A stretch of DNA of 64,000 nucleotides from Diprion similis. Lineage: Eukaryota; Arthropoda; Insecta; Hymenoptera; Diprionidae. Shown piece by piece: positions 18,811 through 54,829 of this stretch. The stretch spans positions 6,042,425 through 6,106,424 of the forward strand of contig NC_060108.1 in the NCBI RefSeq assembly GCF_021155765.1, written 5' to 3'. How positions within the stretch are numbered: the first letter of the stretch is position 1; each line of letters begins with the position of its first letter. Under the pieces are notes generated by a model. That model was not told the origin of the DNA. It saw only the letters and a list, made by a program, of their open reading frames with translations, and did not search any database. The position numbers and the translations under genes are program-made.

Positions 18811-19294
18811 TATATTCATACGTGTATGCAAGCAATGGATATAAGTATTCGCCTCCTGCAACAAGACTTGCAGCGCCTCTCTCGGCGAACGCGTTAGGAA
18901 GCGTTGCTGAACTGATGCAAAACATTGTGTACTTTACATAAGAACCTTAGTAAATAACGGTGGAAGTGATAGATGAGAAGTTTAAAAACTATTATAATAA
19001 ATGATATTAAAATAATGTGAATTGAAAACAATAATCCTTTCAAGTACATAATAGGACACGGGGAAGCAAGCGTAAGTTGAATTACTTTTATAATCATCTG
19101 TTTTTAATTCGTCAGTTTTAGGTTATGAGCTCGTAAATATTAGATGAAGTATACATATACCTACTATAAATATATTTATAACGCTAATATGTAGAAAATA
19201 TGTACAATATTTATACAATGTTAGAAGTTGTACTTTATTATTAAAAAAAAGCAATTTCAAAAATATAATTGAAACATTTTTTAACAGATTCATT
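18811..19294 (+). other. Left flank and leader of ISL2EU-type element
   Basis: Short unique spacer then the left terminal repeat (18873-18905) and an AT-rich leader. A splice acceptor TTTTTTAACAG ends just before 19288, so a 5' non-coding or very short first exon may lie here; none could be fixed. Confidence 0.4.
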
Positions 19295-20127
19295 ATGGAT
19301 GTTATTATCAAAACTGGTTTTGAAAAAATATCCCATAACATTGAATTTCAACCTGAAACAGTCCCAAAAGGAAAAGCCCTCGTGGCGGCTGGACATGTTC
19401 GGGATGTGCAGGAAGAGCAGAAATATGGCATGAAATGTATTACAATATCTGCGAATGTAGTTAGACAAACGTCAGTTTCTTCAACACCATATGCTACAAA
19501 GCTCAGTGTAAGTAATAGTTTTAAATTGTTTTATTACCTAATTTTGTACAAATTGTGTAATGCTTGATTGAAAAATAAATTTGTAACAATTATTTTGTTA
19601 CAGATAAATTTGAAAAGAGAAGTAGTATCTGTTTCTTGCACATGCGTGTACAACAAAAGTGCTAAATGTAAGCATATAGCTGCAGTTATTTATTATATAA
19701 ACCATATAGAAAGTTTAACTAAAACTGACCACGAGCAGCAGTGGGGCAAGGTGTCTGCAAAAAAGTTTGCTCAAGAAAAATATTCTAAAGGTGCATACTT
19801 TTGGGAAATGTTTCCGCCAAAGCCACAAAAAAAACCTGCACCCATGGACGTAGAACTATCAGAATTGGAAGGCAATTCAATGTTAAAACTTATGTTAATG
19901 GCAGCAGAAAAAGGAAAAGAATATTATGAAGTACAAACTTGTGTTGCAAGTCTGCTCGATAAGGTGGAAATTTTGTTGGACCTTAACAGATGTGAAGACT
20001 GTGTTCAACAAACATTTACGTGTGCAATGAATCACCCCATTTACATAAGTGGCTGTGAAATTAGTATTAAGGCAAAACAATTTTATGCTAAAAATGTTGT
20101 GATAGAAAAGAAAAATATTATAAAACT

Positions 20128-22606
20128 TGTAACGTCTCGTTTTTCTGTGGCTGTCACAGACGCGATGGACGTACTTTATCCCCTTTCCAAGGGCGGTTAT
20201 GTCGATAAGTGTTGGTGTGGGCGGTCCCTGCCCAAGGGTGCTGCTCGTCCTTCGATGCGGAGGTGCAACGCTGTGCGCGGGAGTATGAGGATTTACATGG
20301 GTGAAGCGGCGAAGAATCCACCACTGCAATAGTGCGTAGATGTAGCCGGCGAGGTGGATGGGTGTGTGATTTAGCAATGCAGGGTGCGCTGCATTAGCGC
20401 ACGACCGCAGCCGTGTGTGCGTGTGTAGTGGCAATGAATCCTTCACTGCAATAGTGAGAAGATGCAGCCGAGGGTGTGAGTGAATGTGTACTTTAGCAAT
20501 GCAGGGTGCGCTGCAATAGCGCACGACCGCAGCCGTGTGTGTGTCGCAGCAATGAATCTTTCACTGCAATAGCGAGAAGATGCAGCCGGAGGTGTGGGTG
20601 CGTGTGTGATTTAGCAATGCAGAGTACGCTGCAATAGCGCACGACCGCAGCCGCGTGTGGGTGTCGGCAATGAATCCTTCACTGCAATAGTGAGAAGACG
20701 CAGCCGGTGTTGTGGATGGATGTATGATTTAGCAATGCAGAGTGCGCTGCACTAGCGCACGACCACAGCCGTGTGTGTGTGTGTGTCCGCAATGAATCTT
20801 TCACTGCAATAGTGAGAAGACGCAGCCGGTGTTGTGGATGGATGTATGATTTAGCAATGCAGAGTACGCTGCAATAGCGCACGACCACAGCCGTGTGTGT
20901 GTGTGTGTCGGCAATGAATCTTTCACTGCAATAGTGAGAAGACGCAGCCGGTGTTGTGGATGGATGTATGATTTAGCAATGCAGAGTGCGCTGCACTAGC
21001 GCACGACCACAGCCGTGTGTGTGTGTGTGTCCGCAATGAATCTTTCACTGCAATAGTGAGAAGACGCAGCCGGTGTTGTGGATGGATGTATGATTTAGCA
21101 ATGCAGAGTGCGCTGCAATAGCGCACGACCACAGCCGTGTGTGTGTGTGTGTCAGCAATGAATCTTTCACTGCAATAGTGAGAAGACGCAGCCGGTGTTG
21201 TGGATGGATGTATGATTTAGCAATGCAGAGGGCGCTGCAATAGCGCACGACCGCAGCCGTGTGCGTGTGTCAGCAATGAGTCTCTCACTGCAATAGTGAT
21301 AAGACGCAGCCGTTAATGTGGATGGATGTGTAGTTTAGCAATGCAGGGTGCGCTGCAATAGCGCACGACCGCAGCCGTGTGTGTGTGTCAGCAATGAATC
21401 CCTCACTGCAATAGTGAGCAGACGCAGCCGGGGTTGTGGTTGGATGTATGATTTAGCAATGCAGAGTGCGCTGCAATAGCGCACGACCGCAGCTGTATGT
21501 GTGTGTGTGTCAGCAATGAATCTTTCACTGCAATAGTGAGAAGACGCAGCCGTTAGTATGGATGGATGTGCGAGTTAGCAATGCAGAGTGCGCTGCAATA
21601 GCGTACGACCGCAGCCGTGTGTGTGCGTCAGCAATGGATCTTTCACTGCAATAGTGAGAAGACGCAGCCGTTAATATGGATGGATGTGTGAGTTAGCAAT
21701 GCAGAGTGCGCAGCAATAGCGCACGACCGCAGCCGCGTGTGGGTGTCAGCAATGAATCCTTCACTGCAATAGTGATAAGATGCAGCCGGTGGGATGAAGG
21801 GGTGGGTGATTGACAGAATCTCTCTTTGCGCGTGCTGGATAAAATAAGAATTTTAATCTATTTCGCCTGCGGCGTTTAACATTATACAAAAAAAATAGAA
21901 AAATAAAGAATCAACCAATGTTGGGTGATAAAATAATAATAATGATAAATATTAATAGTGAAATAATACAGAAAATTGTGTGGCCTAATATCGGCGCCAG
22001 CTACCGAACAAATTGATTAAATGCGTGTGTTGTAATTAATGACAGTCGTTACGAGTCGTTGACGTGCTGCAGAGCAGTAAATAAAGATAATATAAATTTA
22101 TGTAGGTTTGCTGTTTAGAATGGTCTGAGATTTCGAAATAGAAGAATATAATACTTTAAATAGCCGTTATACGGTTAGAACACAATGTATATAATTGGAT
22201 CAACTGAGCGGTCTTAGTTGATCCTTTGTTTGCGAATTAGCTTCTCCAAAGGAGAGCTTGAAGAAGAGAGTATCCTCCTGTGTCCGAGGTGCCGGCTTAT
22301 ATACTATTTTGGTTCCTTCCCCCTCTTTGGCGGCGCGCGAGGCTCGGACGCCGTGCGTTATATAGATATGGGTTTTTGCTTGCTGTGCCGGATTAGCGTG
22401 TCTCCTATAGGTATATTTCTTAGTATATACATATTATTCTATTCTCTTTGGCTTTGCTCGTTTTTGAATATTATAGGACTAGTTTCAGTCTTTTATATGT
22501 TATATTCGTGCTTTGTGGCGGCTAAAGTTAATTCGCGGAGTGGTTGACTCGAAGGAAGTGGGTTGCTTCCGTGGATTATAATACATAACGTCTTTAGGGC
22601 GTTACA
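20128..22606 (+). mobile_element. Solo-LTR-like element LTR-3 with internal minisatellite
   Basis: 2,479 bp, starting TGTAACGTCTCG and ending GGCGTTACA, with the same 7-bp termini as LTR-1 and LTR-2 but no other evident similarity. Exact 4-bp target duplication AACT (20124-20127, 22607-22610). The insertion lies inside a Leu codon of the SWIM-YqaJ gene, and its removal restores the frame. About 60 percent of its length is the tandem array 20310-21795. The rest (21796-22606) is non-coding and contains no polymerase genes. Confidence 0.82.
20310..21795. repeat. Minisatellite, about 120-bp unit, roughly 13 copies, two hairpins per unit
   Basis: The motif CACTGCAATAGTG (or one-base variants) recurs at 20322, 20443, 20559, 20680, 20802, 20924, 21046, 21168, 21286, 21402, 21525, 21643 and 21762, spacing about 116-122 bp. 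Each unit also has GTGCGCTGCAATAGCGCAC. Both are perfect or near-perfect hairpins closed on a GCAAT loop. Units also contain a (GT)n stretch of variable length and GGATGGATGTATGATT. Open frames on the minus strand through this array follow the repeat and are not genes. Confidence 0.9.
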
Positions 22607-23199
22607 AACTATGTTGTGATACATTAGAACAATCAAATTGTGATGAGTGGTTTCAGGCTCGAAAATTAAGAATAAGTGCAAGTAAAGATGTACATTCAAT
22701 AAAAATCAGACAAAAAAAAACTGAGGAGGCATTGCTCATGGAAATGGTGAATCCAAAAAATATTACAACTAAATCAATTTTGTATGGTAGAAATAACGAA
22801 AAAAAAGCTATAAAAGTTTATGAGAAGATGTACGGAGTCAAAGTAATAAAACTTGGAGTTTTAGTCAGCGATAGGCAACCATGGCTGTGTGCCAGCCTTG
22901 ATGGAGTAGTTTTAGAAAATGATTCTATCCTTAGAATTATAGAAATAAAATGCCCTAGTAGCTGTCAAAAATTACCAATTATTGATGAAGCGAATGAAAA
23001 ATGCAATGTCAAATATTTAAAATTTTATGGAGATCAAATAAGATTGAAAGAAAGTAGTATGTACTATACTCAGTGTCAAGTACAAATGTATGTTAGTGGT
23101 GTAAGTACCTGTCACTTGTTTATTTACTCGCCAATTGAAAATGGAAGTTGTTGTGTTCAAGTTGAGAGAGATGAATCATTTTTGCAAAGTCATTATTAA

Positions 23200-23671
23200 A
23201 AGTGAACAATTTTATTTTCATTACTATTTACCTGCCTTAATGTCAAAACCATTAGAAAATCAAGATGAAAAAAAAAGATGTTTCAATGGGCAAGACATTT
23301 CCAATCAAAATTAAAATATTGTTTCCGAAAGTAATCAAAGTACAATTATGATACTTTATTACAAATTTGTTTTCTTTGTTATTAATATATGAGAAGGGTT
23401 ATCAATGCGCAATTTTATTTTAGAAAGAATGCAAATGCATTTTCCAATCGTTAAAACAATACCAAAGTATTATGATTAAATATTCTTTTATTTATGATAT
23501 AGTAAGTACAAAAATGAAAATAGCAAGTATTAATTACTAAAAGCAGTTGCAGTACTTCTAAATATTAAATGCAACTTTATAAAATAATACAATATATTTT
23601 ATATTAAGACAGTTGAAAAAAAAAAAAAAAACAATAAAACGTTCAATTATTTCTTGTCAAAAAAGTTGTTG
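23200..23671. other. 3' sequence between the convergent ISL2EU genes
   Basis: AT-rich, includes an A15 run near 23615. Nothing coding seen; presumably the two 3' UTRs and poly-A signals. Confidence 0.55.
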
Positions 23672-25495
23672 TTATTCAATATTTATTCCTGCAATTATTG
23701 GGGTCTGAAGATTTACTAATACACAGCACATTTGGAGTAGATCATCGATACTTGAAAGCAAATGCTCCGGTATAAATTGTAAAATTTTGTATGTTCTCAA
23801 CCGTTGCATAATTCTTTCGACGTGGATACGAACTCTTGCTACACTGTATGTTAAACATGTTTCTTTTTCACTGAACTCATTTTTTTTCTCTAAGAACGGT
23901 GGCATAACAAACAATACTTTTTTGCCTGATGCATCAATTTTTGCTTTAATTTCTGGAAATCCTTTATCTGCTAAAACTTCATCTCCGTCCTCAAGTAAAT
24001 CTACAAACTTTGATTCTATTGTTATGTTAGAATCTGTTTTTCTTCCTCCGGCTACTTTAGATTTGAAACTAATCCACCCACATGGAGCAATTCCAATGAG
24101 AACTTTTGCTGTAAATCCTTTTTTATAATGAGAATAAGTGAAGACTTTATTATTTACACCACTAAGTATTTCAATTTCAAACTCCGTGCAATCTATTATA
24201 ACTCGAGTGTTTGCATACTCTGGCTTGAAACAATCTGGCATTGTTCTCTGCACTACATATTTGTCAGGCCAAAACACTAAATTTGCTGTAACTGCAGCTA
24301 AATGATGCAGCATTGAATAAAATATTTTTGAAATGGTTGGCTCATTTACAGCAAAAAATACACTCAGTGTAGAAAATGTTAAACCTGTTTTCATCAAAAT
24401 TAAAAAAATGAACAATCTATTTTTTAGCGACACAGTACATCTGTTTTCATTTACAGCTGATTTAGCCCTTTTCAACAAAAATTCAAAATTTTCCTGTGTC
24501 ACTCCTGCAGTCTGCTTTAGTTGCTTTTCATTATTAATTGATTCATAACCACAAAACTTTCTATTTTCCTTCTCCAAATTACAAGATACTTCTTTATCAC
24601 AAGCACTTTTTGAAGGTGTGCCTACACATTGATCTTTTACTTTTTTCCCTACAATTTCAATAGTATTCAAAGATGTTAAATCTGTTTGAATTTCAGCGTC
24701 ACAGTAATTCTTATCGCTATAAATATATTTACCACAAGTAAAAGAATTCGATGTATTAAAATCATTTAAATGAAGTATTTCTACTTGACATTCTTGGTCC
24801 ACATTTTCTTTTCCTACAATAACACTTCGATCAAATGCACTATTTTCTCCATAATTGATAATTTCATTTTGTTGATTTCCATTTTCATAACCATTGATAC
24901 GTTCTTTTTGTTGCTTTAATTGTCTGCGAGGTTTTTCCACATTCAATTCATTTGATTGATCAGCCATTCTGCGTTTCATAAAACGAGCATGTCTAAAAAT
25001 GAAGAATTACTTTATAAGAAACAATATAACAATATTACATTATCAGTACATCTAAATCATGCATTTTATTCATATTACTTTATTCATACCTGCTTAAAGC
25101 TTGTTTTTCATCAATTTTGTTGCGATGTTTCAAAGAAAATACAGTAGGAACATAGCTAGGGCTTGAAACAGAATCTGACTTCCTATTTCCAATAAAATGC
25201 TGGCTGCAGATAACATGACTTGGTTTTAATATCCAGTTTGATCCATCGGGGCTAGAAAAAAAATATTAAAATGAACACACTTGAGATATAGAATTGGTAT
25301 GTAGTAGACAGCATCAACGCTGACAGCTGATTAATACATCCAGCTTAGTTAGGTCAAGATATCTTACTGGTTCCGCTGTACAGCAGCAATCCACAGTTTC
25401 TTTTGATCTTCTTTGTGCTTATGTTTAGGAAATTTGTAAAATTCACAAGCGCTGTTTGTGTGCGAATTTGTACAGCCAAAGACACAGCAAACCAT
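23672..25495 (-). CDS. ISL2EU-type THAP-DDE transposase 1
   Basis: Three exons on the minus strand: 25368-25495, 25090-25251 and 23672-24992, GT-AG introns, 1,611 nt, 536 residues, no stop. Exons 1-2 encode a THAP finger: MVCCVFGCTNSHTNSACEF, then KKLWIAAVQRN, ICSQHF and PSYVPTVF, spanning about residues 1-80. An acidic linker with paired Cys follows. A helix-turn-helix (LSVFFAVNEPTISKIF) precedes the DDE_Tnp_4 core: VIIDCTEFEIE (Asp), EVLADKGFPE (Asp), RVRIHVERIMQRLRTYKIL (Glu). It should bind element ends via THAP and cut and join DNA. The frame is fully open, so it could be functional. Convergent with the SWIM-YqaJ gene. Confidence 0.9.
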
Positions 25496-25593
25496 TATAA
25501 ATTAACGGAAATATTTATTAATTTATACGAGCAGTAATGGTACGCTCTGTAAAAATCCGGAACGCTTTTTAACTTTCTCGCCACCATGAGCGC

Positions 25594-26389
25594 CTCGATC
25601 GATTTGCTTATCCCCTCTACCTTGGTGCAGGAGGCCAATAGATGCAAGTGTAGCACAGTCGGGGATACATGTTGGTTGTGTCTACGGTATCGTTACCGAC
25701 GGAACTACTCCGTGTAAGACATGGCTGCCTATAATACGGCGATTAGTCCATGCTCACCCGGCAAGTTTACTCCAGGGTTCTTTAGTAGACTTAATCAATG
25801 TTAAGTAATACTTCCAATGGTTCAAACAATGACTGTGATATTAGTAAGGTTCCGTAAGAGGATCTCGCGACCTCTGAGGTAAGTATATCCCTACAATTAA
25901 TAAAAGGTAATCAAATGTGTATAACTAGGTAATATCCGGTAGCTCATAGGTCAGTCGCAAGATACTCGTACCGCAGGTAAACGTGGTTAGTCGTGTTCAC
26001 CGAATAGAAAAGGCAAGATTTGTGGTGGGGAGGTCGGATGCCACAGACGCACCGCAGCCGTTAGGTCAGTACACCGTCCACCTTTGAAAGAGCCACATCT
26101 ATTTTTTCCGATCAGAATTCCGAGAGGTAAGTCTTTGAGTCTTTATTTATTTTCGAAATTCTCGCGCCTACATAGCATGTCGAAAATCAAATAGTTGTGC
26201 GACAATCATGCATCGATACTCGTCTTTTTTCACAATATCTCGCATCGTAAATAAAACTCCGGTGAAGATCTTTTTTCACGAAGATTGCAAAACGCATTGG
26301 CATACGGTACGAACAGTCAAACGGGCATATACGCGGCACAAGTCCAATACAACACAGTGTGCGACAAGCGGGGAAAAGCATGCGCCGAG
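25594..26389. other. No recognisable gene
   Basis: Unique, mixed-composition DNA to the right of the ISL2EU end. It contains several GGTAAG-like sequences (near 25880 and 26130) but no supported exons. Confidence 0.5.
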
Positions 26390-27015
26390 CTTACGTAAAC
26401 AAACGACAACGCAGAATTTCCACGGCTTTCGGGCCGACGTAAACAAACGACAAAGTAGAATACTCACGGCTCACTCGGCGCTCGAGCCGACGCAGGCAAG
26501 CGACGAACGGACAAACCCACGGCTCGCTCGGCGCTCGAGCCGATGTCAACAAACGACAAAGTAGAATACTCACGGCTCACTCGGCGCTCGAGTCGACGTA
26601 AACAAACGACCTAGTCGAATATCTACAGCTTGTTCGACGCTCGAGCCAACGTAAACAAACGGCAAAGCAGAATAATCACGGCTCACTCGGCGCTCGATAC
26701 GACGTAAACAAACGACCTAGTCGAATATCCACAGCTCGCTCGGCGCTCGTACCAACGTAAACAAACGGCAAAGCAGAATATTCACGGCTCACCCGGCGCT
26801 CGAGTCGACGTAAACACACTACCTAGTCGAATATCCACAGCTCTCTCGGTGCTCGAGCCAACGTCAACAAACGGCAACGCAGAATTTCCACGGCTTTCGG
26901 ACTTACATAAACAAACGACAAAGTAAAATACTCACGGCTCACTCGGCGCTCGAGCCGACGCAGGCAAGCGACGAACGGGAAAACCCACTGCTCGCTCGGC
27001 CCTCGAGCCGGTCAT
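26390..27015. repeat. Minisatellite, unit about 48-54 bp, about 11-12 copies
   Basis: Units contain ACGTAAACAAACGAC, then AGAATAYTCACGGCTCACT, then CGGCGCTCGAGCCG. Two subfamilies alternate: one with GACAAAGTAGAATACTCAC, one with GACCTAGTCGAATATCCAC, the latter mostly in the middle of the array, which suggests higher-order expansion. Open frames crossing it follow the period and are not genes. Confidence 0.82.
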
Positions 27016-27885
27016 AAAGTCACCACAAAATAGAATAACCACAATAGAGCGCACCGCCGACGATATTGGCGATATTCCACGAATATTACAATATAAACGC
27101 CCGCGTCAAACCCAAACTTTTCGTTAATATTATTCCTATACAAATGTATGTATTTTCCTCCCCTTATTTTCACCTTCCGATTCAAGTCACTTCGTTTCAG
27201 TTCAATTTTATTCAATTTCAAGTTATTTTTCCGTCCGTTTCCACCAAAATTCAGGCTACATGTAATTTATTTCAATTTTCTTCCATTAATCTTGTTTTTT
27301 GTTTTTATATCCGCTCCAAGTCACTTTTCCGTTTGCTTTAACCCGCCGTTGCGCTATATATTGTTGTCTACTTTCATTTTTCACTTTCTTTCGATTTTGC
27401 CATTTCCATTCGCTTGTCTTGCGTTATTGTTCTGTAAAATTATTTGTCTTCGCTGTTTTTCTTTTGATCTTCTTGTGTCCTGTATTAAATTTCAGTTACG
27501 TACGCATTTTTCATCCACCGTCGTCGCGATCTACGTGATATCGTTGATTCCCTAATACGCGTCCGGTAAATAGTTGTAACTTCGACGCTTTGTCGCGTCG
27601 TTCGCTTCAAATGTGAATTATTAGGCGTACCTAATTTCACCACGGAATCGTCTTGACGTACGGATTATTTCTTCTGAACTACCGTCATGTTTTCCATGTC
27701 AGTCGAAAAAAGCCTATATACAATCATCCCACGACACGCAAATATTTTCGAAATCCAAACCTACGCGAACATTATCGGTATCGAACTAATTCTCATTACG
27801 CCGTACCTTTATTTCAATCGAGATAAGACCGTCACGCCAACACATATCAATCTCACGAGTCGTATTGTCTCTTTACAGCAGCATC
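27016..27885. other. Non-coding, pyrimidine-rich stretch upstream of the proline-rich gene
   Basis: Strong T/C bias between about 27130 and 27500 makes long spurious frames. A palindrome GTGAATTATTAGG...CCTAATTTCAC lies near 27613-27642. A splice acceptor CTTTACAG precedes 27880, so a 5' non-coding exon of the next gene may lie in here. Confidence 0.45.
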
Positions 27886-28889
27886 ATGAGTGAAGAATGC
27901 AGAGCTGAATCTGCCGATTCGGAGGGTACCTGGGATATACCCCTCTCCCAGGCCAGGATGGTAAGTAGCGTTGTTGCAAAGCAGCGGTACAAGTGAAATC
28001 GAAAAGCTGTTAATTTTGCATTCCGTATCGTTTCGCAGGTTGCGCGGACCGTAAAAGCCGAAGAAAACTCCGCGGAGTGGCGAGTTCCCGTAGGTATGAA
28101 AATTTTTCACAACTAGCGGTACAGGCACGTCCGGTAAGCCGCGCCATCCCGCAGAGCGTCGTCTTCCCGATAATAAAGCGTTTCATGGTGTCACACGTTG
28201 TTGCAGCCGTTGTCGCCGATAGAAATACTCTTCGAGGATTCCGAAGACGAGGAGCCGGCAGCCGACCGACAACGGCTTACACCGCCGACGCCGGGATCTT
28301 CGCCACCGCCACCGCCTCCGTCACCGGAGCGGCTGGAGGAAAACGTAAGTACGAGCGCAATTCGAAGGTCGCGCCGAAGGCACATCCGGTAAACCGCGTG
28401 CCGCCTTGTCACGCGACATCTGTGCATTGATCAAGCTCATCAGTGCGTTGCACGTTTTCGCAACTAACATTGTGATGTTATTGCAGGGGACCCCGCCAAT
28501 GGTCGAGCGGCCAAATACGCCGCCACCGCCCCCAGCACTGGCGTTGCCGCCGTACAGAGTATTAAGGGAGCGCTTCGAAGGGGGGGGGGGGGGGGGCGGT
28601 GGCGATGGACCAGCCCGCGCCCCCAAGACGCCGATACGAACCGGAAGAGGATGAGTTACTCCTGGCGTACGCCGTGCGGAGGCCGTCGCTCCGCGGCTTG
28701 TACAGCTAGGAGTTCTGGGCGCGGGCGGTCAGGGTCCCGGGCGGCCTGGCGGTATTGCGGAGGTCGCCGTGCTCCCTTCTCAGCCGGCTCCGGCTGCTCG
28801 TTAAAACCAAAAAACGCGTATTGGAACGGCTCGAACCAGGGCGTAGGAACGCCCTGGAAAATTTTTTCAAGGCCGCGCGTAGAGAATAA
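27886..28889 (+). pseudogene. Proline-rich multi-exon gene, function unknown, with frameshift and stop
   Basis: Four exons, all joints phase 0 with strong signals: 27886-27960 (MSEECRAESADSEGTWDIP, donor GTAAGT), 28039-28089, 28207-28344 (acidic LFEDSEDEE then PPTPGSSPPPPPPSPERL) and 28487 onward (GTPPMVERPNTPPPPPALAL). A run of 17 G (28580-28596) then sets the frame: as written it ends at TGA 28652-28654. With one G fewer it runs on through YEPEEDELLLAYAVRRPSL to TAG at 28707-28709, and past it an open frame (FWARAVRVPGG ... NALENFFKAARRE) continues to TAA 28887-28889. I do not recognise the family. Consistent splicing and composition support a real gene; whether the G-run shift is genuine or an assembly error cannot be told here. 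GC-rich, unlike its neighbours. Confidence 0.6.
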
Positions 28890-29020
28890 TTAGAATAAAA
28901 CTATTACAATTGAGAGTAGGATGAGGACATATTACGTCAAGTTTAGGATAGTATAGATTAAAGAAATAAACAGTATAAAATTACAAGAGTTTATATGATT
29001 CAAGTCTTCAAGACACATAC

Positions 29021-29794
29021 ATGTCGTTCCAAGAAAAATTCCACAATCGAGTACGCCTAGTCCTCATACCGGTTAACCGTAACCCGCGAGATCTTCCGGA
29101 ACACCCTCCGATGACGCGTTCGAATATTCACTCATCCTTTGCGTCATCTCGAAAAAATTCGGTCACGCAGTGTCCAGCTTCACAGACGTTTCAGACGTTA
29201 TATAGTCGGATCTCTGATGTGCTTATAAAGAACGACTATCCACCTGGCTTATTACACAGAGTAATCAGTAGAAGAGTTTTACAAATATCACATTCTGACA
29301 TTAACAGTACACCAAATTTGGGAGAAAATAATAACATCCAAACCTTTATTTCTATTCCGTATGTTGCTGGGTTGTTTGAAAACTTGAATAGAACTTTCAA
29401 AAAATATAATGTTAGATTTGTAGGCAAAAATGTGAATGATCTACGTAGGTGGTTCGATTCTGGCAAAGATAGTCTTCCTTTTGATAAACAATCTAATGTG
29501 CTATACAAGATCTTCTGTATAGATTGTGGCAAACTTTATATTGGACAGACAAGCCGGTGTTTAAACACTAGGTTAAATGAACACAAAAACAACTATAAAG
29601 ACAGTGAGGACCACCAAACAGCACTGACAAAACATGCCTTAAATTTACAACACCAATTCGATTATGATAATGTAAAAATTTTGCATATTGAACCTAGATA
29701 TTATAACCGGTCGTTACTTGAAATGTGTAATATTGTGAGCAGTGTCACTTCTGTTAATTTGAGACAGGACATTAAACATTTCAGCGATGTTTAA
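29021..29794 (+). CDS. Penelope-like element: C-terminal RT region plus GIY-YIG endonuclease (5'-truncated)
   Basis: 257 codons from an ATG. The N-terminal half resembles the region after the reverse transcriptase palm of Penelope-like elements (SRISDVLIKNDYPPGLLHRV). The C-terminal half has KIFCIDCGKLYIGQTSRCLN TRLNEH, i.e. the CxxC-preceded GIY-YIG nuclease motif with the downstream Arg, then ALTKHALNLQHQFD and later catalytic-region residues. The RT palm with its YxDD motif is absent, so the copy is 5'-truncated, as is common for this class. Frame is open to the TAA. Penelope-like elements use target-primed reverse transcription with this nuclease. Confidence 0.85.
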   Translation: MSFQEKFHNRVRLVLIPVNRNPRDLPEHPPMTRSNIHSSFASSRKNSVTQCPASQTFQTLYSRISDVLIKNDYPPGLLHRVISRRVLQISHSDINSTPNLGENNNIQTFISIPYVAGLFENLNRTFKKYNVRFVGKNVNDLRRWFDSGKDSLPFDKQSNVLYKIFCIDCGKLYIGQTSRCLNTRLNEHKNNYKDSEDHQTALTKHALNLQHQFDYDNVKILHIEPRYYNRSLLEMCNIVSSVTSVNLRQDIKHFSDV

Positions 29795-42494: not shown

Positions 42495-43354
42495 ATCGTA
42501 AGGGGGTGTCCTCGTCGATTTCCACGTTGTCCAATATATCTCTAACATTGAAGTCCACGGGTCTTGGACGTGAAAAAGGGCTTGACAGCCCCCTTATTTT
42601 CTGACGCAATTCTAAACAAAAGCACTCTGACCCATATTTATTTGACGCAGTAATAAAGAAATGTCATAAATTCTACGAATTTACTATCGTGATTTCGTAA
42701 AATCCATTCAATTTTTTTGTGTTTCCTTAAATAAAAATATATTTGAGTGTTTTTGTTCAGAATCACGAATAGAATAGGGCTGTCATACCCTTTTTTGCAT
42801 TTGACATACATGGACTTGGATGCTCAGAGATATATACGTCAACGCCGAAATCGACCCTTCAATGAATACATATCGACGGGCTTCATAAAAACAGACGTAT
42901 TTATTTTGTTGAGTACCTAGAGCGGACGTATCGTGAAAGATGCTATAGTAAGTGTAAACTAATCTCCGTACACATCTGGTAGAGTTGGGTGAGATACGTC
43001 CGTTTTATAAGGCATTCGATGAAATAGGCTGTTGAAAATTTTGTAGCCAAAAATGTACGTTCTAGATAGCCCATCGAAATACGTCTGTTCCACAGGACCC
43101 GTCAATAGTGAAAGGAAAATTCAAGAAGACCGATATTAGAGGCGTGAAGCTGCCCCTTCTCGGTTCAACTGATGCACCGCTTCAATACCGCAGTTTCAAA
43201 GATATTGACGGAATTCCAGAAAAGTGTACCTTGGTCTGTGGAGACTGGCAATAACATGCATTTAATCAATGATATTCGTATATTATTAAAAAAAAAACAG
43301 TTGTATGGTTACAGAACACAACTTAAATATTATGTAGCATTCAATCCAATATAC
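42495..43354. other. Unique non-coding stretch
   Basis: No recognisable gene, RNA or repeat. Confidence 0.5.
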
Positions 43355-44326
43355 TGTAACGTTCGCCCTGTAGGCACTGCAAGTGCCGACAGTGCGCCGG
43401 TGAGTTGTCTTTGTCCTGTTGTCAGTCAAACCTCTTTACATTAATGTTTTAAGAAAAAGGACATCCAATCCTCAGTCGGTGCAAGGTTATGATTTAGTAC
43501 TTCAAGTTGTCTACTCTCAGCTCAGGTTTTACCCGTCGCTATTGTTGAGCGCGGATTTTATTGATCGATAGTTAGTGTGTTATTCCTAGCTTAGGCGCGG
43601 GTTTTATCCGTTGCCGTCGAGCGTGGGTTTTATCCGTTGCTCGTCCCTCTCTATTGGTTTGTTAGTATGCCGTCGAATGACTTCAAGATATTTTTTCTTC
43701 AATAGAATAGAAGAAAAAAACAACTATCAATTAATTCTAAGTGTACAGCTGTCTGCCCACTTGTAGCCTTATAATTACTCTGCACCATGCATGAATTTCT
43801 ACAACTTAATGAATCAATATACTATTTGTTCAAAAAATCAACAATTAAAAATGAAATAATATTAAAAGAAAATGAAAGAGAAAAGAAAAAGAAACTAAAT
43901 TGAATTGAGAACATAAACCTCAATTGAATAGAATAATTGAAATCGATAATTCGATATAAATGCTGTGGATTTATGTAGACTTTTATCTAATAACTTGTGC
44001 TCGATTTTCTATAATATCAGCCGGCTCTGATGCTGGTCTGTTATTGAAGGATTTTCAATAATGTAGTGAGACAGCCGGCTCGGTTGCCTCAGGTCTGCTC
44101 CTCGATCCGTGGTTTGCCGGTCAGATATTTGGTGGCCCGTGTTGCCGTTGCTGCGAGCCCCGGTCGTCGCGTCGTCCATCTGTCGGCGTCCGGTCAGTAC
44201 TGTCGACGGTCTTTGTTGTCTCGTAATCTGTCTCTGTCGTTGAAGGTGGTCAGTCCGTGGCTTCTACTCAGGGGTTCTTACCCGGTGACCAACGTTGTGA
44301 CGCGACCAGTCACCGGTCACGTTACA
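43355..44326 (+). mobile_element. Solo-LTR-like element LTR-2, uninterrupted
   Basis: 972 bp from TGTAACGTTCGCCC to CACGTTACA. Flanks ATAC and ATAT fit a 4-bp duplication with one change. Colinear with the broken copy LTR-1; it serves as the empty-site reference for the P and Harbinger insertions there. The 5' half has repeated GCGCGGGTTTTATCCGTTGC, the 3' half GC-rich sequence. No adjacent PBS, PPT or polymerase. Confidence 0.8.
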
Positions 44327-44348
44327 ATATATATTTTTTCCAGGAAAT

Positions 44349-46128: not shown

Positions 46129-46147
46129 CGGTTGTTCAGCGTTCATC

Positions 46148-49100
46148 TCACACGGGCGTTAGCTTTGTAATGTGGAAGAGGTTCGATTCCGACTTCTTGT
46201 GCCCAGTGTCGATTTCGTAGATTGAATTGGAAATTTTCTTTTGTATTCTATATGGTCCGACCCTCAGTTCATCCAGTTTTCTCCTATTTAGTCGATTCCC
46301 ATTTTCCACGTAGACTCGGTCTCCTATTTTTAACTGTAATTCTTTTCGGTGCCGATCAAAGTTCCTTTTATTGTAGTTGTGTGACTTGATCGTGTTTCTT
46401 AAAGCTAGTCTCCTGTCTCTCTTCAGATCATCATTTGTACCTTCTGATTTTAAATCCTCCGGTAGAATATTTACATTTTCACCTTCCAGTAGGTATTTTG
46501 GCGCGAATTTTGTGATTGTGTGATCCGTTTTGTTATACTTTTCTACACACCTTTGTGCGATGGTCGTCCATGCGATTTTCTTCGTACTTTCGTTTATTTC
46601 GCATCGTATTTTGTTAATCAGAGTTTGGTTTAACCTTTCGTTGAGGCCATTCGAAAACGGTGCATCAACAGCGGTAAAGACCATTTTGGTGTTTTTCTCT
46701 TTCAGAAATTCCTTGAATTCTTTCAAATTTATGCCCGGATATTGATCCGTTAGTATCATGTTGATATTGTAACTTTGTGTCACCATCTCGGTTAATTTTA
46801 TAAAGGTCTTGGAATTTTGGTTTTTTGATGTCAAGATATAAGCGTATCTCGTAAAATGGTCCACCAAAAGATGCAAATATTTTTTTTTGACCGAGAACCG
46901 CCAAAGCCTCCAATCGTATCAATGGATACGATTTCAAAAGGATATTTCGCTGGACCCAAGTGTGACATTAAACCGTATTTAGATTTTCTTCTTGATTTGT
47001 TCTTCGTACAAATCTCACAATTATCACAGATTTTTTTTAAGTTTGCTATGTGGTTTTTCGCTGTATAGAACGGTGTTATTTTATTCAGTGTTTGAGTTCT
47101 TCCGATGTGACAGTACGTCCTGTGTACCTTTTCTATTAGGTTTCTACTGAATTCTTCCGATAAGACAATTTTCTCTCTTTTTCTTGTTTTTTTATAGTAG
47201 ATTTCGTTTTCCATTGTCAGTGTATCTTTTCGTTGTTTATTTAGATTTTGTGTTGGTCGTTCTTTATATCTACTAGATCAATTAGATTAACTACCTTCAA
47301 GAAATCCTCGGCATTCTCGTAGGGTTCCACAACCGGGTTTCTGCTTAAGCAGTCTGCTTCGTGGTTTAATTTCCCTGGGTTATATTTTATTTTTAAATTA
47401 TATTGCGATAAGTAGTATGTCAATTCCCCTAGTTCTTCATCCGTCCTGGCTTTTATATTCATGTGTTCCAAGGGTTTGTGGTCGGAATATATCGTAAATT
47501 CTTTTCCCATTAACCAGTGTTGCCAGTATTTGACGGCTTCTTTTATCGCCAAACATTCTAGGTATATCGCTCTCCTTTTTTTGGGGCTTCAGTTGATTTT
47601 TTTGAGAAATAAGCCACTGGCTTACTATTTCCATTTTCATCCTTTTGTTTTAGTACAGCTCCCACTCCTTTAATGCTTGCGTCTGTGTAGATGTCAATTT
47701 CACCTTCTGGATCGAAAATTTTCAAAACTGGTTCTGAACACATTAATGTCTCTATTTTGTCAAATGCCTCTTGACAAGTTTCTGACCAGTTGAATGGTAC
47801 TGCTTTCCTCAGTAGGTTGTGAAGTGGATCCAGAATTATTGCAATGTGTGGTATGAATTTGTGGTGAAAATTTATTTTTCCCAGAAATTGACGTATATTT
47901 TTCCTCGTTTCCGGAGCTGGAAAATTCTTAACGGCCGTTAAATAATCCTTCAGAGGCTTGACTGAATTGTTTTCTATTCTGTGACCCAGGTAATTTGCAT
48001 AACTCTGTGCGAAATTGCATTTTGAAAATTTCAGTCTAAATCCTTCAGTCAGTATTGCCTCCAATAGTCTCGACAAATGCGTGATGTGTTCTTCAAAAGT
48101 TTTTGAAAAAACTATGATGTCGTCGATGAAGTTAACCGCAAACCCAGAGAGCTTGTGTCTCCGTATAATATTGCTCAGTATTCTTTGGAAGATCGCTGGA
48201 GCCGTTTTTAGTCCAAATGGGAGGCAGGTCCATTGGTAGTGACCTTCCTGTGTAGCGAATGCGGTTTTTTCTCTGTCCTGGATCTTCAGAGGGATCGACC
48301 AAAATGCAGAATTGATGTCCAACGTTGTAAAGTACTTGCTATTTACCGTTTTCCCCATCAAATCTTCAATTAATGGGAACGGTTGTGATTGAGGAGCAAT
48401 GATTTTGTTCAAGTCTCTAAAATCTATACATAGTCTCGATCTTCTTCCCTCTTCTTTTTTATATGCCAGAGTAACCGGAGCAGCAAATGGGCTGCATGAT
48501 TCCTCGATCAGATTTTTTTCCAATAGCTTTGCTATTTGGTTTTCTATTTCTTTCCTATCTTCCATTGTGCATCTGTATGGGCGTTTGTAACAGTATCTGT
48601 CGACCGTGAGATCAATATGAGCTTCATAGTCTTTTACCCTGCCAATGTCATACTTGTCTTTTGCAAATACTGATTTGTATTTATCTATCAGTTCTTCAAT
48701 ATCTAGTTGTTGTTGTGAACTTCGGTTCTTTATTGAGATCTCAAATTCCTCATGGTTTATGTGTTCATTGAAATTTACTTCGTGTTTGTTTTATAGTTCT
48801 TTACCTAGTACATCAGGAATTTCGACCCTTTCTCTCTCTATGTCTTGTTTTTTGGAGGCATACTCATTTATTTGTTTGTTGTTGCCCTGTAGGATCCTTA
48901 GATCTTCATCTTGGGTTGACTTGAAATTCTTGATGTAATCCAGACCGATTAAAAAATCATAATTGAAATTTTCGTTATTCACGATAAAGACCTCCATACT
49001 TTTTTCAATATCGTAGATTTTTATTTTTAGTGTTACCATACCTTCCGTCTTCTTTACACCATTAATAGTTTTCAAATTTACCATCTGTATATTTTTGTTT

Positions 49101-49200
49101 TATTTTTAGCAATTTTGCATCAATCAGTGACACGTTTGAGCCCGAGTCATAAACTCCAGAAACTACAAGTGTGTCATTTAGTAGTAAATTGATTTTTATT
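46148..49200 (-). pseudogene. Gypsy pol: protease, RT, RNase H, integrase with several breaks
   Basis: Protease: VYDSGSNVSLID near 49150-49190, then a frame change to 49084-48791. A TAA (48791-48793) separates it from RT in the same frame. RT 48565-47558: LCIDFRDLNKI, LPFGLKTAPAIFQRI, FIDDIIVFS (FIDD in place of the usual YIDD). RNase H starts YTDASIKGVGAVL and continues after a frame change at a T run near 47575 (47552-47241, with SDHKPLEHMN and NHEADCLSRNP). Integrase: zinc-binding HRTYCHIG ... CDNCEIC, DTIGGF (Asp), a shift in an A run near 46885, LTDQYPGIN (Asp), NGLNERLNQTL (Glu), and a GPY/F-like VGPYRIQKK tail. It ends at 46148. Clearly inactive. Confidence 0.85.
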
Positions 49201-49298
49201 AATGGTGTTATTTTTAGTTTTTTGGATTTCTTCCGTTTAGCTCTATTTCCAACTCTGAATTGTTGACACTTTTTATTTGTTTGGTCCTTTTACTTTTT

Positions 49299-50183
49299 TC
49301 ATTTTTTTACCTTACCTTTTATACCTTTTTTCTCGCTTTCGCAGATTTGCCATGGTCTTTTTTCTTCAACTTTCGTGGGTTTCCTATCGGAATACCTTTC
49401 TTTTCTTTCCATTCTTGTTTTATCCACCAGATGTTCTAATTTACCAATTTCGTTGTAGAGATCCTCCGTTCCTCGTAAAGTTTCTCTGTCTATTTTGTCC
49501 GACACGTAGTTTGGTAAGCCGACCGCTATGAGATCTATAAGTGTTTCGGTGTCTATGGATTTCCTTATTTCCAGTAACAGTTTTTCGTTCTTTAGAGCGT
49601 AATCCAGCAGGGGACCTGCTTGATATTTAAAGGCCAGAGCGTATCTAATTAGAGACCACCCTTTATTGGCAAAGGTTTCGCGAAAGTTGCTTTTCCACTT
49701 GCTCCATTCTGATTCCACCGTGAATTTCAAGACCATACAGCTGTACCAATTCGCACTGACTTTCTCCAGGAAAAATTTTAATATTTCAATTATTTTCCTG
49801 TCTTCTACGATCACGCATCGTCCGCATTCTTTTTCAAAATCCTGTACCCATTGGTAAGCGTTCGAATTTTTCCCATCAAATTTTCCAATCATAAAGTCCT
49901 TCGCTATTTTTGCCAAGTTCTGGACTTCAGATTTTTGTTGTTTTTCCTGGAGTACTTTTTCCAACAATTTTTTAATCGTCTCAACTGCGGTACTTTGTGT
50001 GGTCTCGACTGCTTTTTCCGTGATTTCCTCTAAATAGTAATCACCAAACTGCAGATTTTCTTCTTCATCCAAGTATACTTTTTTTAATTCTTCTGTTAGA
50101 GTAATCCAGATTTTCCTATATTGATTCCTCTTTGTTAGTGTTTTTTTTATTTTAGCAAATACTTGTGTATTGAGGTCAGACAT
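49299..50183 (-). CDS. Gypsy gag-like protein
   Basis: 294 codons with ATG at 50183. MSDLNTQVFAKIKK start; central capsid-like segment FDGKNSNAYQWVQDFEKEC, WYSCMVLKF and WSKWKSNFRETFANKGW; basic C terminus. No CCHC zinc knuckle is visible before the stop, though it may lie downstream in another frame. Position directly upstream of protease supports gag. Confidence 0.7.
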   Translation of the reverse strand: MSDLNTQVFAKIKKTLTKRNQYRKIWITLTEELKKVYLDEEENLQFGDYYLEEITEKAVETTQSTAVETIKKLLEKVLQEKQQKSEVQNLAKIAKDFMIGKFDGKNSNAYQWVQDFEKECGRCVIVEDRKIIEILKFFLEKVSANWYSCMVLKFTVESEWSKWKSNFRETFANKGWSLIRYALAFKYQAGPLLDYALKNEKLLLEIRKSIDTETLIDLIAVGLPNYVSDKIDRETLRGTEDLYNEIGKLEHLVDKTRMERKERYSDRKPTKVEEKRPWQICESEKKGIKGKVKK

Positions 50184-50628
50184 AATATTGTCGATTTCCC
50201 ATCTGCCGATTCTCTCATCTTGAAATCAAACCTTAGTTTGTCCATCTCTTGAAATATTTGCAGAAATGTTGTTTTGTAATGAGTCTATTTTTCTCCTGTT
50301 TTGAGGTTAGAATAAAGGTTCAACTGCGTTTCTCTGTAAAATCGAAAGTTTTTTTATTTACACTATGTACAACATGGTTCATTTCCTCAAATCTTACCTG
50401 TAGAATCAAAAGAAACAACATTTAAAGCTGTTATTCCAATCGATGTATTTCCTCTCACAGTTTGGTTTTCTACAGGTTTTACTCTGCGATTCTCTCGTTC
50501 TCTTACTTTCTGTCTCCCCACTCCTAACGTCGGTAACATAGGTCGCAGCCGTAAGAGAAGCGACGATACGAGTAGACGAGAGTCACGATTTTCTTTACAC
50601 ATATATTGGGAAATGACAAACTCGAACA
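50184..50628. other. Non-coding sequence right of the Gypsy element
   Basis: Might contain the remnant 5' LTR and leader of the Gypsy element, but no TG...CA unit matched to the other side. Confidence 0.4.
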
Positions 50629-50793
50629 TGACATCTAGCGGCGAAAAATGTAACTGCTGCTGTCAAGTCGCTGCCCGGTGTTTACCAGTGTTTGCGCCGT
50701 GATATACGTGCGTTTTGTTAGTATCAAAGAGATTTATTAAAGCAGTGACTCAATAATTAAGAAAAGAAATCAACAAATAAGGATCGTGACAGT

Positions 50794-52418
50794 ATGGGCG
50801 ACATTCCGGGCGAAGGTATGAGGTTTTCGCCAAGAATCTCTAAAGACAAATCATTTTGTGTCGTATACGGCTGCTCAAGTAACAGTAGCAGAGATCCAAC
50901 CGTGAGATTCCACACATTTCCGACACGTGGACAAACTTTTGTTAAAATTACCAATAAACGAGGAATATCGGAAAAAATCGACAAATTCAAGGCCTGGGAA
51001 CAAGCAATAAAAATCGGTAAACCGATTACTCCGACCATGCGCATCTGTTCCTTGCACTTTAAAAAAGAGGATTATTTTCTGCCAGGTAAGAAGTACCAAA
51101 TTGTTTTTGGAATTGATGTAGATTATACTATAGAAAAAAATTAAAGAAAGGATTTATTGTTAACTTTTGCAAAATGATCTTTATATAAATAATTTTAACA
51201 CAATTCTCTGTTGCAGATGTTCAATCGAAAAGAAAAAATTTAAAAATTAGTGCAGTTCCGTCATATAACTTGCCGAAGAGATCAACCGACAAAGTAACAG
51301 AAACTGCGGAAAATAAGAATCGAACGAAAAGAATATTAGAAAGAGAACAGAAGCGACAGTTGATTGCGAAAGAGACAGTTAAAAAAGTTGAAACCCCTGC
51401 CGGTGAAGACTCTCCGATGGAAGTGGATGCCAATGAAAAATGTGTCGAAACACAATCACTACTTGATATTCCACCACTTTCCTCTACTGCTGAAATTGGA
51501 ATTCAAGTACAGAGCGGAGACCTTGTTCCAACACTACGCAGTCTTATTAAGAGTGATCGGCAACTCAGTACTCTCACTGGTATTGAAAATTTCACGATAC
51601 TCGAGCGAATTGTAGATATTGTGCATATAATGAACCCAAACATTGCGGATTCAAAATCAACGGTCCAAGAACAAATATTGATGACGTATATTAAACTAAA
51701 ACAAAACGCATCATATGCGCTTCTCGCAATTTTCAGTCGAATGTACAGTGCACAAAGCTGCAAAAGAATATTCCTCCGAATGTTAGACGTTTTAAGTAGA
51801 GTCCTTCGAGTAGCCATTCCTTTCCCCTCAAAGACTGAAATCTCACGAAATATTCCGACGTGTTTCGAAGGTTTCGAAGATGTTCGTGTTGTTCTAGATT
51901 GTACAGAGATATTTTTGCAAAAACCAAAAAATCTTTGCTGTCAAATCCTGACATATTCATTTTACAAAGGAACCTACACAGTAAAATTCATGACCGGAGT
52001 CACTCCGGCTGGTATGATTTCATTCATAAGCAAACCATACGGAGGAAGATCGTCGGACAAAGCGATATTCGTAGAGAGCAACTTGTTGGAAAAGTTACAG
52101 GCAAATGATGCTGTTATGGTTGACAAAGGGTTCCTCATCGATGATATTTGCAAAAAAAATGACTTAAAACTTATTCGGCCTCCTTTTTTGAAAAAACAAA
52201 AACAATTCTCAAGCGTCGACGCATGTTTAACTGCAAAAATTGCCAAAGCTAGAGTACACATCGAGCGTGCCAATCAAAGACTCAAAACATTCAAAATTCT
52301 AGGGGATAAACTTCCATCCAAACTTGCATCGAAGATCGAACAAATATTCACAATAATTTGCGGAACAGTAAATATTGGTTCTCCAATTCTAAAAAACAAC
52401 AAGTTTCCATCGTTGTGA
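50794..52418 (+). CDS. ISL2EU-type THAP-DDE transposase 2
   Basis: Exon 1 50794-51085, exon 2 51217-52418, 1,494 nt, 497 residues, no stop. THAP finger in exon 1: FCVVYGCSSNSSRDP, FHTFP, AWEQAIKIG, RICSLHF, completed by VPSYNLP in exon 2. Basic linker (KRILEREQKRQ). DDE core: VRVVLDCTEIFLQ (Asp), AVMVDKGFLIDD (Asp), ARVHIERANQRLKTFKIL (Glu), preceded by a helical segment with SRMYSAQSCKRIF. Homologous to the gene at 23672-25495 along its length but strongly diverged. Convergent with the SWIM-YqaJ gene, 146 bp between stops. Confidence 0.9.
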
Positions 52419-52564
52419 CCATCTTTTTCTACGTAACTTTGAATGGGAATAAAATAATAAATATACGTATGTTTATTTTTATATTACATAAATATAAAGC
52501 TTTATATTTCTCTCTTTTCTATGCGTACACTCAAAATGCAAGTAAATAAAAGAAACGTTGTAAA

Positions 52565-54761
52565 TTAAACCTTAAGACAAAGATTATGTACCATCATGTT
52601 AAAATAAACGTGTTTGATTGCAAAAAGCATTTCTTTAGCAAAATTCTCATCGAAAGAAACATGCAAAACAATCATGCTGTTGTCGAAAGGTGCAAAAATG
52701 ACCAAATCAGCTTGTTGCAAGTTTAAAATCGCCATGCCTGCTTGGACTTGACCGTAGTACGTATGCTTGTTTTTCAAAGTTATACTATCGTTTGTTATTT
52801 TCAACCAGTTCAAGTTTGGTATCACGTCGGAAATTGTTTGCGTTTTTCCAGCATAAGAGCATTTAATTTCGATAAGCTTATTTGGTTTGCCATCTTCAAA
52901 TATAACTCCATCGGGAGAATACCCTAGCCATCGATTTTGCTGTGACACAGTTAATCCGAATTGAAAAACTTGCTCCGATGTTCGCTTCTCATATTCTTTA
53001 CGTGCAAGACTTTCACTGTCTGCGCCGTGTTTTACAAACTTGTTAGTGAAATCTTGAGGGTTGAAATAATTTTCGGATTTTTTGTGCCAATCAGGATTTT
53101 TGTTTTTACTGTAGGTGTACAGCTCATAACACCTTGATCCCGTGACTCTCATTTGGCGCTCCTTCAACCAAACCGAAAACGATGTCATGCTCTCTGTACA
53201 GATGTCCACAACATCTCTCTCCAATCCATTCAGAATATTTTGACAACATTCTCTGAGCGGGCGATGAACGCAATCCGCTAAATGTTGCATACATTCTGAT
53301 GTTTGGTTCAGAAAAATCGTTCTAATCTTCTCCCTTTGGGGATCAGATACAGGGACAATACTTTTTGGAAGAATAGGAGCGAGCCGTCCAAACCTGTGTG
53401 AAATCCAAATCAAGTTCCCCAAAGATACACCATCACCCTTTGAAAAATATAGACCAGAGAAACAATAACTGCACACCTCCAAGGTTAAAAAGAAAATTTT
53501 TAGTAATTAAATGGATTCTCGTGAAGAAAGTTATGGTGTAAAAGTTCAGATTCTCAAAAGCATGCTCAATGGTTAAAAAAAAAAGTTTTTATTTATTTAT
53601 TTATTTCTAATTTTATTATTTATTATAACAAACTATGGTAGTCTAGGACTAAATATAAACAAACTGCATTGGACATTAAGACCCAAAGATCCTTTTCAGA
53701 ACCTTTTCCACTCCTGCGCGTAGCAGGTCTGCGAAGAGATTCTTCGCAGACTCTCAACGCAGGACGCAAAAGGGTTTCTTATGTCGAAATCTTCATTGTA
53801 GGTTTTGTTGAAAGTTTATTATAAACTAGATACACATTGTGAGCTATATTTATTTTATACTATAACTTTATGCCATGAAAATTCACTTTTTACTAGAATT
53901 TTGACAAAATACCAACACCATCAAGTTGGTACACATCGTTCATTAGAAAAGAGAGAATAGAAGAACGCTATTTTCTATTTTCATTTCTCTTAGGTTTATG
54001 TAATATATTATCCATCGTATCAAACTGGATTGAGTGTTGGAGTTGGCTGTGTGAAATGAAAGGCAGAAAGTTTTACGTGTGTTGTGCAAATGCTGATCCT
54101 GGAATTCCTTGTAGAATCATCGCTCGTATCAGCTCTTCGTCCGCAACGTTAACTACGTCGATGGATTTGAGTCGGAAACATTCGTGCTCTTCTAACGGCA
54201 CCGGCTTATATTTTTCCAGTGATTTTTTTTGAGGCTCGCTCCACACGCATTTTTTGTCCGTACATGAGAGAACGTCCAGTTTATCGATATCGTTTCTAAT
54301 CAGATATAATAACTTTGGTTAATTAAGAACACATTGATTGATTATTGAAACCATATTTACCTGGTAAGAAACAACAACACAGCCAAACTATGTTTGCACT
54401 TTTGACCGAGTCCAGCTTTGCACGTGCAGGTTATGTTGCCGATCACTCCTACTTTATTTAAAGTTGCGTTTATCTCGTGAGGACTGCTTTTTGAATTGGA
54501 TGTTTGAAAACAGAATGCTCGGACTTTGATAATATTATTTTCACAGTCACGAGCATCCTCGCATCTGTCACACCGGATTATGTGGCCTGCATTCAGCAAT
54601 TTTTCACCTTCGATGAAATTTCTGTGCGTTGGAGCTGTCTCAGCCCAAGCACACACATCGCCAGTGGTCAATCTCATTGCGAGAATTGAATGGATTTTGA
54701 TAAATTCGAACCGATAAACAAATAAATATAAGCGACTCCCTATGATTTCACGTGTTAGCAT
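52565..54761 (-). CDS. SWIM zinc finger - YqaJ-like exonuclease protein 2
   Basis: Exons 54361-54761, 54077-54295 and 52565-53468 (minus strand), GT-AG introns, 1,524 nt, 507 residues from ATG 54761. The frame is open further upstream, so the start is uncertain. SWIM finger ITCTCKAGLGQKCKHSLAVL. A linker with CTDKKCVWSEPQKKSLEKYK follows. Nuclease: GADSESLARKEYEKRT, LGYSPDGVIFEDG, LIEIKCSYAGK, TYYGQVQAGMAI, giving E...D...EXK...Q. The third exon uses the acceptor GTGTGCAG just before 53468, which alone keeps phase. Same architecture as the split gene at 19295-23199. It probably works on element DNA ends; the role is not established by sequence. Confidence 0.85.
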
Positions 54762-54829
54762 GGACCGGCTGACTTGGATGAGGCCGCCATATTGAATAGG
54801 CCACGCCTCCGTGTTGGTTCCCAATATAA

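Follow-up and report, generated by a model that had tools for sequence, protein, structure and literature searches.

ISL2EU-type transposons of Diprion similis and their predicted SWIM-YqaJ accessory gene

The ISL2EU group belongs to the PHIS (Harbinger-like) superfamily of transposons. In the passages of Han et al. (2015; PMC4482050) that concern it, its members carry one gene for a THAP-HTH-DDE transposase and a second for a YqaJ protein, the function of which is stated as unknown. According to the same passages, the target is A|AT|T, a trait common to 25 families, the elements usually start with GG and the mean length is about 4.8 kb. The target context is treated here as customary for the group, not as diagnostic of it. 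Passages of a fish survey repeat the transposase-YqaJ pairing and do not contain the name SWIM (PMC9179366), and a passage of a weevil study filters YqaJ orthogroups as related to transposable elements (PMC13289751). Two elements of this kind, E1 and E2, lie in a stretch of 64,000 nucleotides from Diprion similis (contig NC_060108.1, positions 6,042,425 to 6,106,424), referred to here as the window. An earlier note on this DNA had given the pairing of a transposase with an exonuclease as known for ISL2EU, and the published passages bear this out (PMC4482050).

From their sequences, E1 and E2 are almost certainly two old, separate families of ISL2EU-type cut-and-paste transposons in the PHIS superfamily, each combining a transposase with a SWIM-YqaJ accessory gene on the opposite strand. 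The assignment to the ISL2EU type uses domains and the AT duplication, with published families compared by description. The transposase-nuclease pair is already known, and the nuclease carries its SWIM part consistently. No description of a SWIM-YqaJ or Mutator-YqaJ fusion was found in the open-licence literature, represented mostly by titles and abstract openings and by passages of PMC9179366, PMC4746887, PMC7826175 and PMC13289751. The fusion may well be visible in Repbase entries or protein-database architectures, which lie outside that literature. The best explanation as a whole, which adds to this identity a role of the nuclease in repair of the donor gap after excision, is plausible and falls somewhat short of probable.

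Anatomy of the two elements

E2 extends from 50607 to 54823 (4.2 kb, no strand assigned), with ends TGGGAA...TTCCCA and AT on each side. Its bounds are set by copies on contig C2 (L037, 0.697 Mb, 99.2% identity) and contig C14 (L038, 1.250 Mb, 99.1% identity) and by an empty site of the latter. The transposase gene is on the plus strand (50794..52418; exons 50794-51085 and 51217-52418) and would encode a THAP-HTH-DDE_Tnp_4 protein of 497 residues, in which Pfam finds THAP (4.8e-12) and DDE_Tnp_4 (8.3e-41), together with HTH_Tnp_4 at 25.9 bits, slightly below the cut-off of 27. The SWIM-YqaJ gene faces it on the minus strand (52565..54677). Its exons, 54361-54677 (SWIM), 54077-54295 and 52565-53468 (YqaJ), join in frame into 479 residues with matches to SWIM (1.8e-4, 21.4 bits against a cut-off of 19.6) and YqaJ (1.4e-15, 58.3 bits; 6e-16 in a separate profile scan). 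Gene models of both elements are predictions requiring GT-AG introns and open joined frames, and in E2 both genes are open with such introns in all three copies (window, C2 and C14). Adjoining E2 on the minus strand, at 46148-50225, are frames of a long terminal repeat retrotransposon (weak gag, reverse transcriptase-RNaseH, integrase), with frames judged alike by eye at locus L036.

E1 spans 18849..25637 (6.8 kb including a 2.48-kb insertion, no strand assigned), bounds that mark where the copies at 18.144 and 18.174 Mb of contig C3 stop matching. These two copies, the only ones found besides that of the window in the genome search, are 98.7-99.2% identical to it over the main pieces, one of them matching only up to 24739, short of the transposase end. 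The termini read T(C/G)GCCTCCTG..., AT flanks each end, and inverted arms at 18846-18865 and 25621-25640 share 90% identity. The elements are those of the earlier note, which had placed them at 18873-25593 and about 50629-54826, with boundaries now slightly wider. The C3 copies (L002/L016/L039 at 18.14 Mb, L003/L017/L040 at 18.17 Mb) are about 30 kb apart. Because they have a common left flank and opposite orientations, they probably represent a single insertion, duplicated later in an inverted segmental duplication that carried E1 along.

The E1 transposase gene (23672..25495, minus strand; exons 25368-25495, 25090-25251 and 23672-24992) would yield a THAP-HTH-DDE_Tnp_4 protein of 536 residues (THAP 5.6e-12, HTH_Tnp_4 2.2e-7, DDE_Tnp_4 1.5e-35), its THAP score rising from 16.7 to 46.7 bits once the exons are joined. 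On the plus strand are the SWIM part of the accessory gene (19295..20127; exons 19295-19507 and 19604-20127 in an in-frame GT-AG model, ligands CTC..CKH at 19637-19675) and the YqaJ part (22607..23199; 1.2e-18). The profile check proposed earlier thus yields THAP, DDE_Tnp_4 and YqaJ in both elements and SWIM in E2, the E1 finger scoring 17.7-18.1 bits, slightly under the cut-off, while aligning with other SWIM fingers at all four ligands. Weak matches to IL17 in the E1 SWIM exons and to WSC were taken as chance.

The two parts of the E1 nuclease gene are severed by a repeat (20128..22606, no strand assigned) that is absent from the two other E1 copies. It is 2.48 kb long, has ends TGTAACG/CGTTACA and a 4-bp target-site duplication, AACT, and contains a minisatellite with a period of 118-122. 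With a 581-base probe from it, 40 genome places were scored (its own site included; 86 candidates), and since several are 99-100% identical, the repeat is, by these matches, high-copy and young. Because this insertion, not an intron, parts SWIM from YqaJ, E1 encodes no fused protein as it stands. The claim that both elements encode a SWIM-YqaJ fusion therefore holds for E2 and not for E1, which also loses its standing as a working two-gene element. The tail-to-tail arrangement of a THAP-DDE_Tnp_4 transposase and the nuclease gene is seen in both.

AT is present on both sides at four of the five target sites read (E1 in the window and on C3, E2 in the window and on C2), and the fifth, that of L038 on C14, has TT on the left and AT on the right. 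The L038 copy sits in a repeat that is also present, unoccupied, in the window (7521..7780, minus strand, GATAGTTATAAAGTTG without the element). The lengths of this paralogous empty site are those expected of an AT duplication in which one base has been substituted, and they rule out TA or TWA; viewed by itself, the site would also be compatible with no duplication at all. A diverged repeat occurs at two places in the window, 7226-7960 and 43347-44329, and it is a relative of it on C14 that hosts L038. T precedes and A follows the AT at all five sites (window; L003, L040, L037 and L038), and with AT taken as the duplication the elements start with TGGGAA in E2 and T(C/G)GCC in E1. An alternative to action on the donor gap is that the nuclease, ahead of insertion, pares back or uncovers the ends of the element itself, or an intermediate. 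The anatomy would be identical, and every free 5′ end would be a substrate for an exonuclease of the phage type. Apart from single substitutions, the element ends are tidy at all five sites, which does not suggest processive trimming, and this alternative is considered unlikely.

The SWIM-YqaJ gene across the genome

The genome surveyed comprises 269 Mb in 60 contigs; contig C1 starts with TTAGG repeats, which are typical of many arthropods. A search with the YqaJ profile gave at least 45 matches, of which 33 were read and 12 left out. By tblastn and Pfam, SWIM-YqaJ occurs in 26 of the 33 loci read. Because of this recurrence the pairing is, as far as such matches can tell, more than chance, and the earlier suggestion that SWIM is a regular partner of the nuclease is supported. 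Similarity to DDE_Tnp_4 was found in the stretch read at 21 of the 26 loci, in every case tail-to-tail with the nuclease.

The finger follows CxCx(7-8)CxH in 14 of the 26 loci (E1, counted from the window, L006 to L011, L019, L020, L025, L030, L033, L035 and L036), and in three of these (L006, L035 and L036) a stop separates one ligand pair from the other. Four loci (L016, L017, L028 and L029) have one altered zinc ligand, and L031 gives a partial match only. The remaining seven (L013, L014, L015, L023, L024, L026 and L032) form clade D of the tree described below. Their finger lies over two frames, with CxxC replacing CxC and both halves found in six loci and one half in L032, as if an intron apparently split it between the ligand pairs. 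In the SWIM alignment (A7), from which L035 and L036 were left out for their stops, the three cysteines are present in 11 of 11 rows and the histidine in 10, and 10 of the 11 aligned pieces match PF04434 at E<=1 (best 1.2e-5). A conserved stretch upstream of CxC, GHv..-i.A.v.QTS, is common to clades A, B and C, with a more distant version in D (A, C and D judged by eye), so the finger unit exceeds the 38-position Pfam model. Finger and upstream stretch together would be the targeting part of the nuclease.

It might be argued that SWIM and YqaJ are separate genes, or that SWIM is a chance cysteine pattern. The E1 finger is under the Pfam cut-off, and in E1 and E2 the two domains lie in separate frames, their fusion being modelled from DNA. 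Conversely, the E2 finger is above the cut-off, the E2 exons join in frame, nearly all of the aligned fingers match the profile, and both domains share a single open frame at L016, L017, L019, L028, L029 and L033, the first two and L028 and L029 with the altered ligand noted above. These six loci contradict separate transcripts, which the earlier note had named as one finding that would refute its view. The whole alternative is regarded as very improbable.

In 7 of the 33 loci read (L005, L012, L018, L021, L022, L027 and L034; clade M), YqaJ is preceded by a PF20700 Mutator-like transposase. The two scanned by Pfam, L005 and L012, score 2e-61 and 9e-11, and the other five were assigned by tblastn similarity to L005, some of them with stops or deletions. 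In L005 one open frame of 659 residues holds PF20700 and YqaJ. This same-frame pairing, seen also at L154 (3483-6382), is a second transposase-nuclease type in the genome, with a shared unit of about 6.5 kb, for which no inverted ends were found (L155).

In the nuclease tree (36 rows), clades A (with E1), B (with E2), C, D and M each form one side of a starred branch, and the 19 viral rows make up the other side of a branch with support 88/96; the D and M YqaJ domains join at only 87/86. SWIM-YqaJ thus spans four diverged clades (A to D) in one genome, and E1 and E2 are, as had been claimed, strongly diverged. Catalytic residues are kept in all four proteins, DCTE/DKGF/HxER in the transposases and D..ExK in the nucleases. 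Residues E76, D110, E124, K126 and Q164 of the E2 nuclease are invariant or at least 90% kept in alignments A1 (15 rows) and A6 (18 rows). The structure predicted for the E2 YqaJ domain, the only one modelled, has the lambda exonuclease fold, and the YqaJ part is by this model a lambda-exonuclease-fold nuclease of the PD-(D/E)XK type with putative activity. Enzymes of this type are 5′-3′ exonucleases and form a ring trimer.

The kept active site bears on the main rival explanation, in which SWIM-YqaJ is mainly a targeting and assembly factor, comparable to the Myb-like protein with which PIF/Harbinger delivers its transposase into the nucleus and onto the ends, nuclease action being secondary. 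SWIM-YqaJ occupies the place of the second open reading frame in that sister group, passages on Harbinger3_DR report that its Myb-like protein binds the ends and is required for nuclear localisation (PMC2836001), and Han et al. term the ISL2EU protein DNA-binding (PMC4482050). The transposase here, however, already has THAP and HTH domains, and an active site kept across deep divergence would be needless for a pure adaptor. This explanation is a serious one that is nonetheless rather doubtful.

Joint divergence and a possible role in repair

Among ten elements in which both proteins are readable, nuclease and transposase distances are correlated (r=0.946, none of 5000 permutations as high; r=0.922, again 0/5000, with a single representative of two close copies), X standing for the stops in the transposases of L006 and L032. 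Such agreement speaks for a long shared inheritance of SWIM-YqaJ and the transposase, in which partners were apparently not swapped. The correlation also suggests a joint task, and so weakens the idea that the nuclease benefits the element by some other selfish route, such as degrading rival DNA or preventing silencing by the host. Nothing specific favours that idea, and it is judged quite improbable.

The comparison of non-synonymous and synonymous substitution (Ka/Ks) between families, proposed in the earlier note, shows selection acting between them. Among the nucleases of five B-clade families, synonymous divergence (pS, 0.67-0.87, near saturation) is well above non-synonymous divergence (pN, 0.31-0.40) in all ten pairs (Fisher P<=2e-10), and the three B-clade transposase pairs tested follow the same pattern. 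In the close pair L019/L028 the difference is significant for SWIM-YqaJ (pS 0.086 against pN 0.041, P=0.008) and not for the transposase (0.041 against 0.035, P=0.81). The close pairs L012/L021 of clade M (P=0.08) and L014/L013 of clade D (P=0.24) are not significant.

A course of events can be proposed in which DDE cutting by the transposase would excise the element with a 2-nt stagger, as the family and the AT duplication suggest. By way of DNA, the transposase or recombination proteins of the host, the SWIM finger would then recruit the nuclease to the break, and the nuclease, to judge by its fold, would resect the 5′ ends. Finally, the donor gap may be repaired from a sister or homologous copy, so that the element is kept or gained; this is the least certain step. 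The direct basis of the proposal consists of gene anatomy, predicted fold, catalytic residues, correlated divergence, selection between families and the AT duplication. Such a resection and gap-repair mechanism is one possibility, less likely to be true than not to be, and nuclease activity, its direction, recruitment and the outcome of repair are likewise tentative. SWIM proteins of the Shu2/SWS1 family interact with RAD51 paralogs (PMC6316741), and recruitment to recombination proteins is therefore a fair lead, no more. A wider version is unlikely: that ISL2EU elements carry a Red-like module steering repair, in which a resection nuclease is docked by SWIM to RAD51-paralog or annealing proteins and excision repair is biased to recopying, the two transposase-nuclease pairings pointing to a general advantage.

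A number of results weigh against the excision-repair reading. Each of the three E1 copies found carries a damaged nuclease gene. The C3 copies (L016 and L017) have no insertion and keep SWIM and YqaJ in one frame of 323 residues, in which the finger is changed from CTC to CTR (CxC to CxR) and a frameshift follows the EIK (ExK) motif. Several further SWIM-YqaJ loci have broken zinc ligands or frames, and no DDE_Tnp_4 was found in the stretch read at five of the 26 (L010, L030, L031, L035 and L036). Among the three E2 copies, the nuclease has 3-4 synonymous and 3-8 non-synonymous changes, not clearly different from neutral, and the transposase 0-1 and 7-8. These comparisons involve few changes and show no clear present-day constraint; inserted copies drift, as expected. 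The E2 structural model was built with 16 phage or viral relatives as input, which steers it toward that fold, and single-sequence AlphaFold2 on a 313-residue frame gave a predicted local distance difference test score (pLDDT) of 35 and is unusable. Moreover, a nuclease is not required for such chemistry generally, because Harbinger relatives move with a Myb-like second protein, as described in passages of PMC2836001.

The second ISL2EU gene was in the literature by 2015 at the latest, and a regular SWIM finger gives a concrete part of it to mutate. Experiments can thereby ask whether cut-and-paste transposons supply an end-resecting enzyme of their own with which to steer repair.

Neighbouring elements and known systems

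Other mobile sequences occur in the window. Pieces of a P-element/THAP9-like transposase lie at 2967-6533 and 62551-63189 (TNP-like_RNaseH_N 7e-33 at 4254-4868, TNP-like_RNaseH_C 5e-6 at 5748-6530, THAP9_C 5e-10 at 62551-63189), the frame 2967-3743 having no match in the domain scan. A hAT-type frame of 773 residues is present at 57755-60076 (Dimer_Tnp_hAT 5e-8), within which a segment of about 120 residues is, by eye, duplicated. At 28979-29794 there is a frame with a GIY-YIG domain (8.5e-5), a domain also carried by Penelope-like elements.

Among known nucleases, lambda exonuclease (Red alpha), LHK-Exo and YqaJ-type phage nucleases differ from SWIM-YqaJ in that no SWIM-like pattern occurs in the 33 viral open reading frames checked among 106 viral loci fetched, one scan having kept the best 80 of 191 loci; on this ground, a viral origin for the fusion was rejected. 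A bacterial and archaeal scan found no relative, such scans, like the viral ones, starting from short patterns and missing distant relatives. Shu2/SWS1 proteins resemble the finger in the CxC...CxH motif, which alone is common to both. The PF20700 Mutator-like-YqaJ fusions of the same genome also link a transposase family to a YqaJ nuclease; unlike the ISL2EU-type pair, they encode the two in a single frame, and at the seven loci neither a SWIM pattern in these frames nor DDE_Tnp_4 in the stretch read was found. SWIM occurs in MuDR. Derivation of SWIM-YqaJ from a Mutator transposase was considered and not upheld: the frames of the seven clade M loci lack the pattern, and D groups with M at 87/86 only. 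These fusions suggest that transposases were paired with such nucleases on more than one occasion, or that the pairing passed from one transposon type to another.

PIF/Harbinger elements are similar in combining a DDE-type transposase with a second element-coded protein. They differ, in the passages of PMC4482050 and PMC2836001, in that this protein is of Myb/SANT type, the duplication is TWA and no THAP is listed for the transposase. Here, by contrast, the second gene is SWIM-YqaJ, and the empty site of L038 is at odds with duplication of TA or TWA. ISL2EU, as far as the passages of Han et al. describe it, is the closest system, with the same two genes, for a THAP-HTH-DDE transposase and a YqaJ protein, and the same AT duplication. 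No word beginning with "swim" appears in Han et al. (PMC4482050). E1 and E2 measure about 4.2-4.3 kb without the insertion, compared with the published mean of about 4.8 kb, and they start with TGG or TCG instead of GG. Their target context also differs from that of published ISL2EU, being T|AT|A and not A|AT|T.

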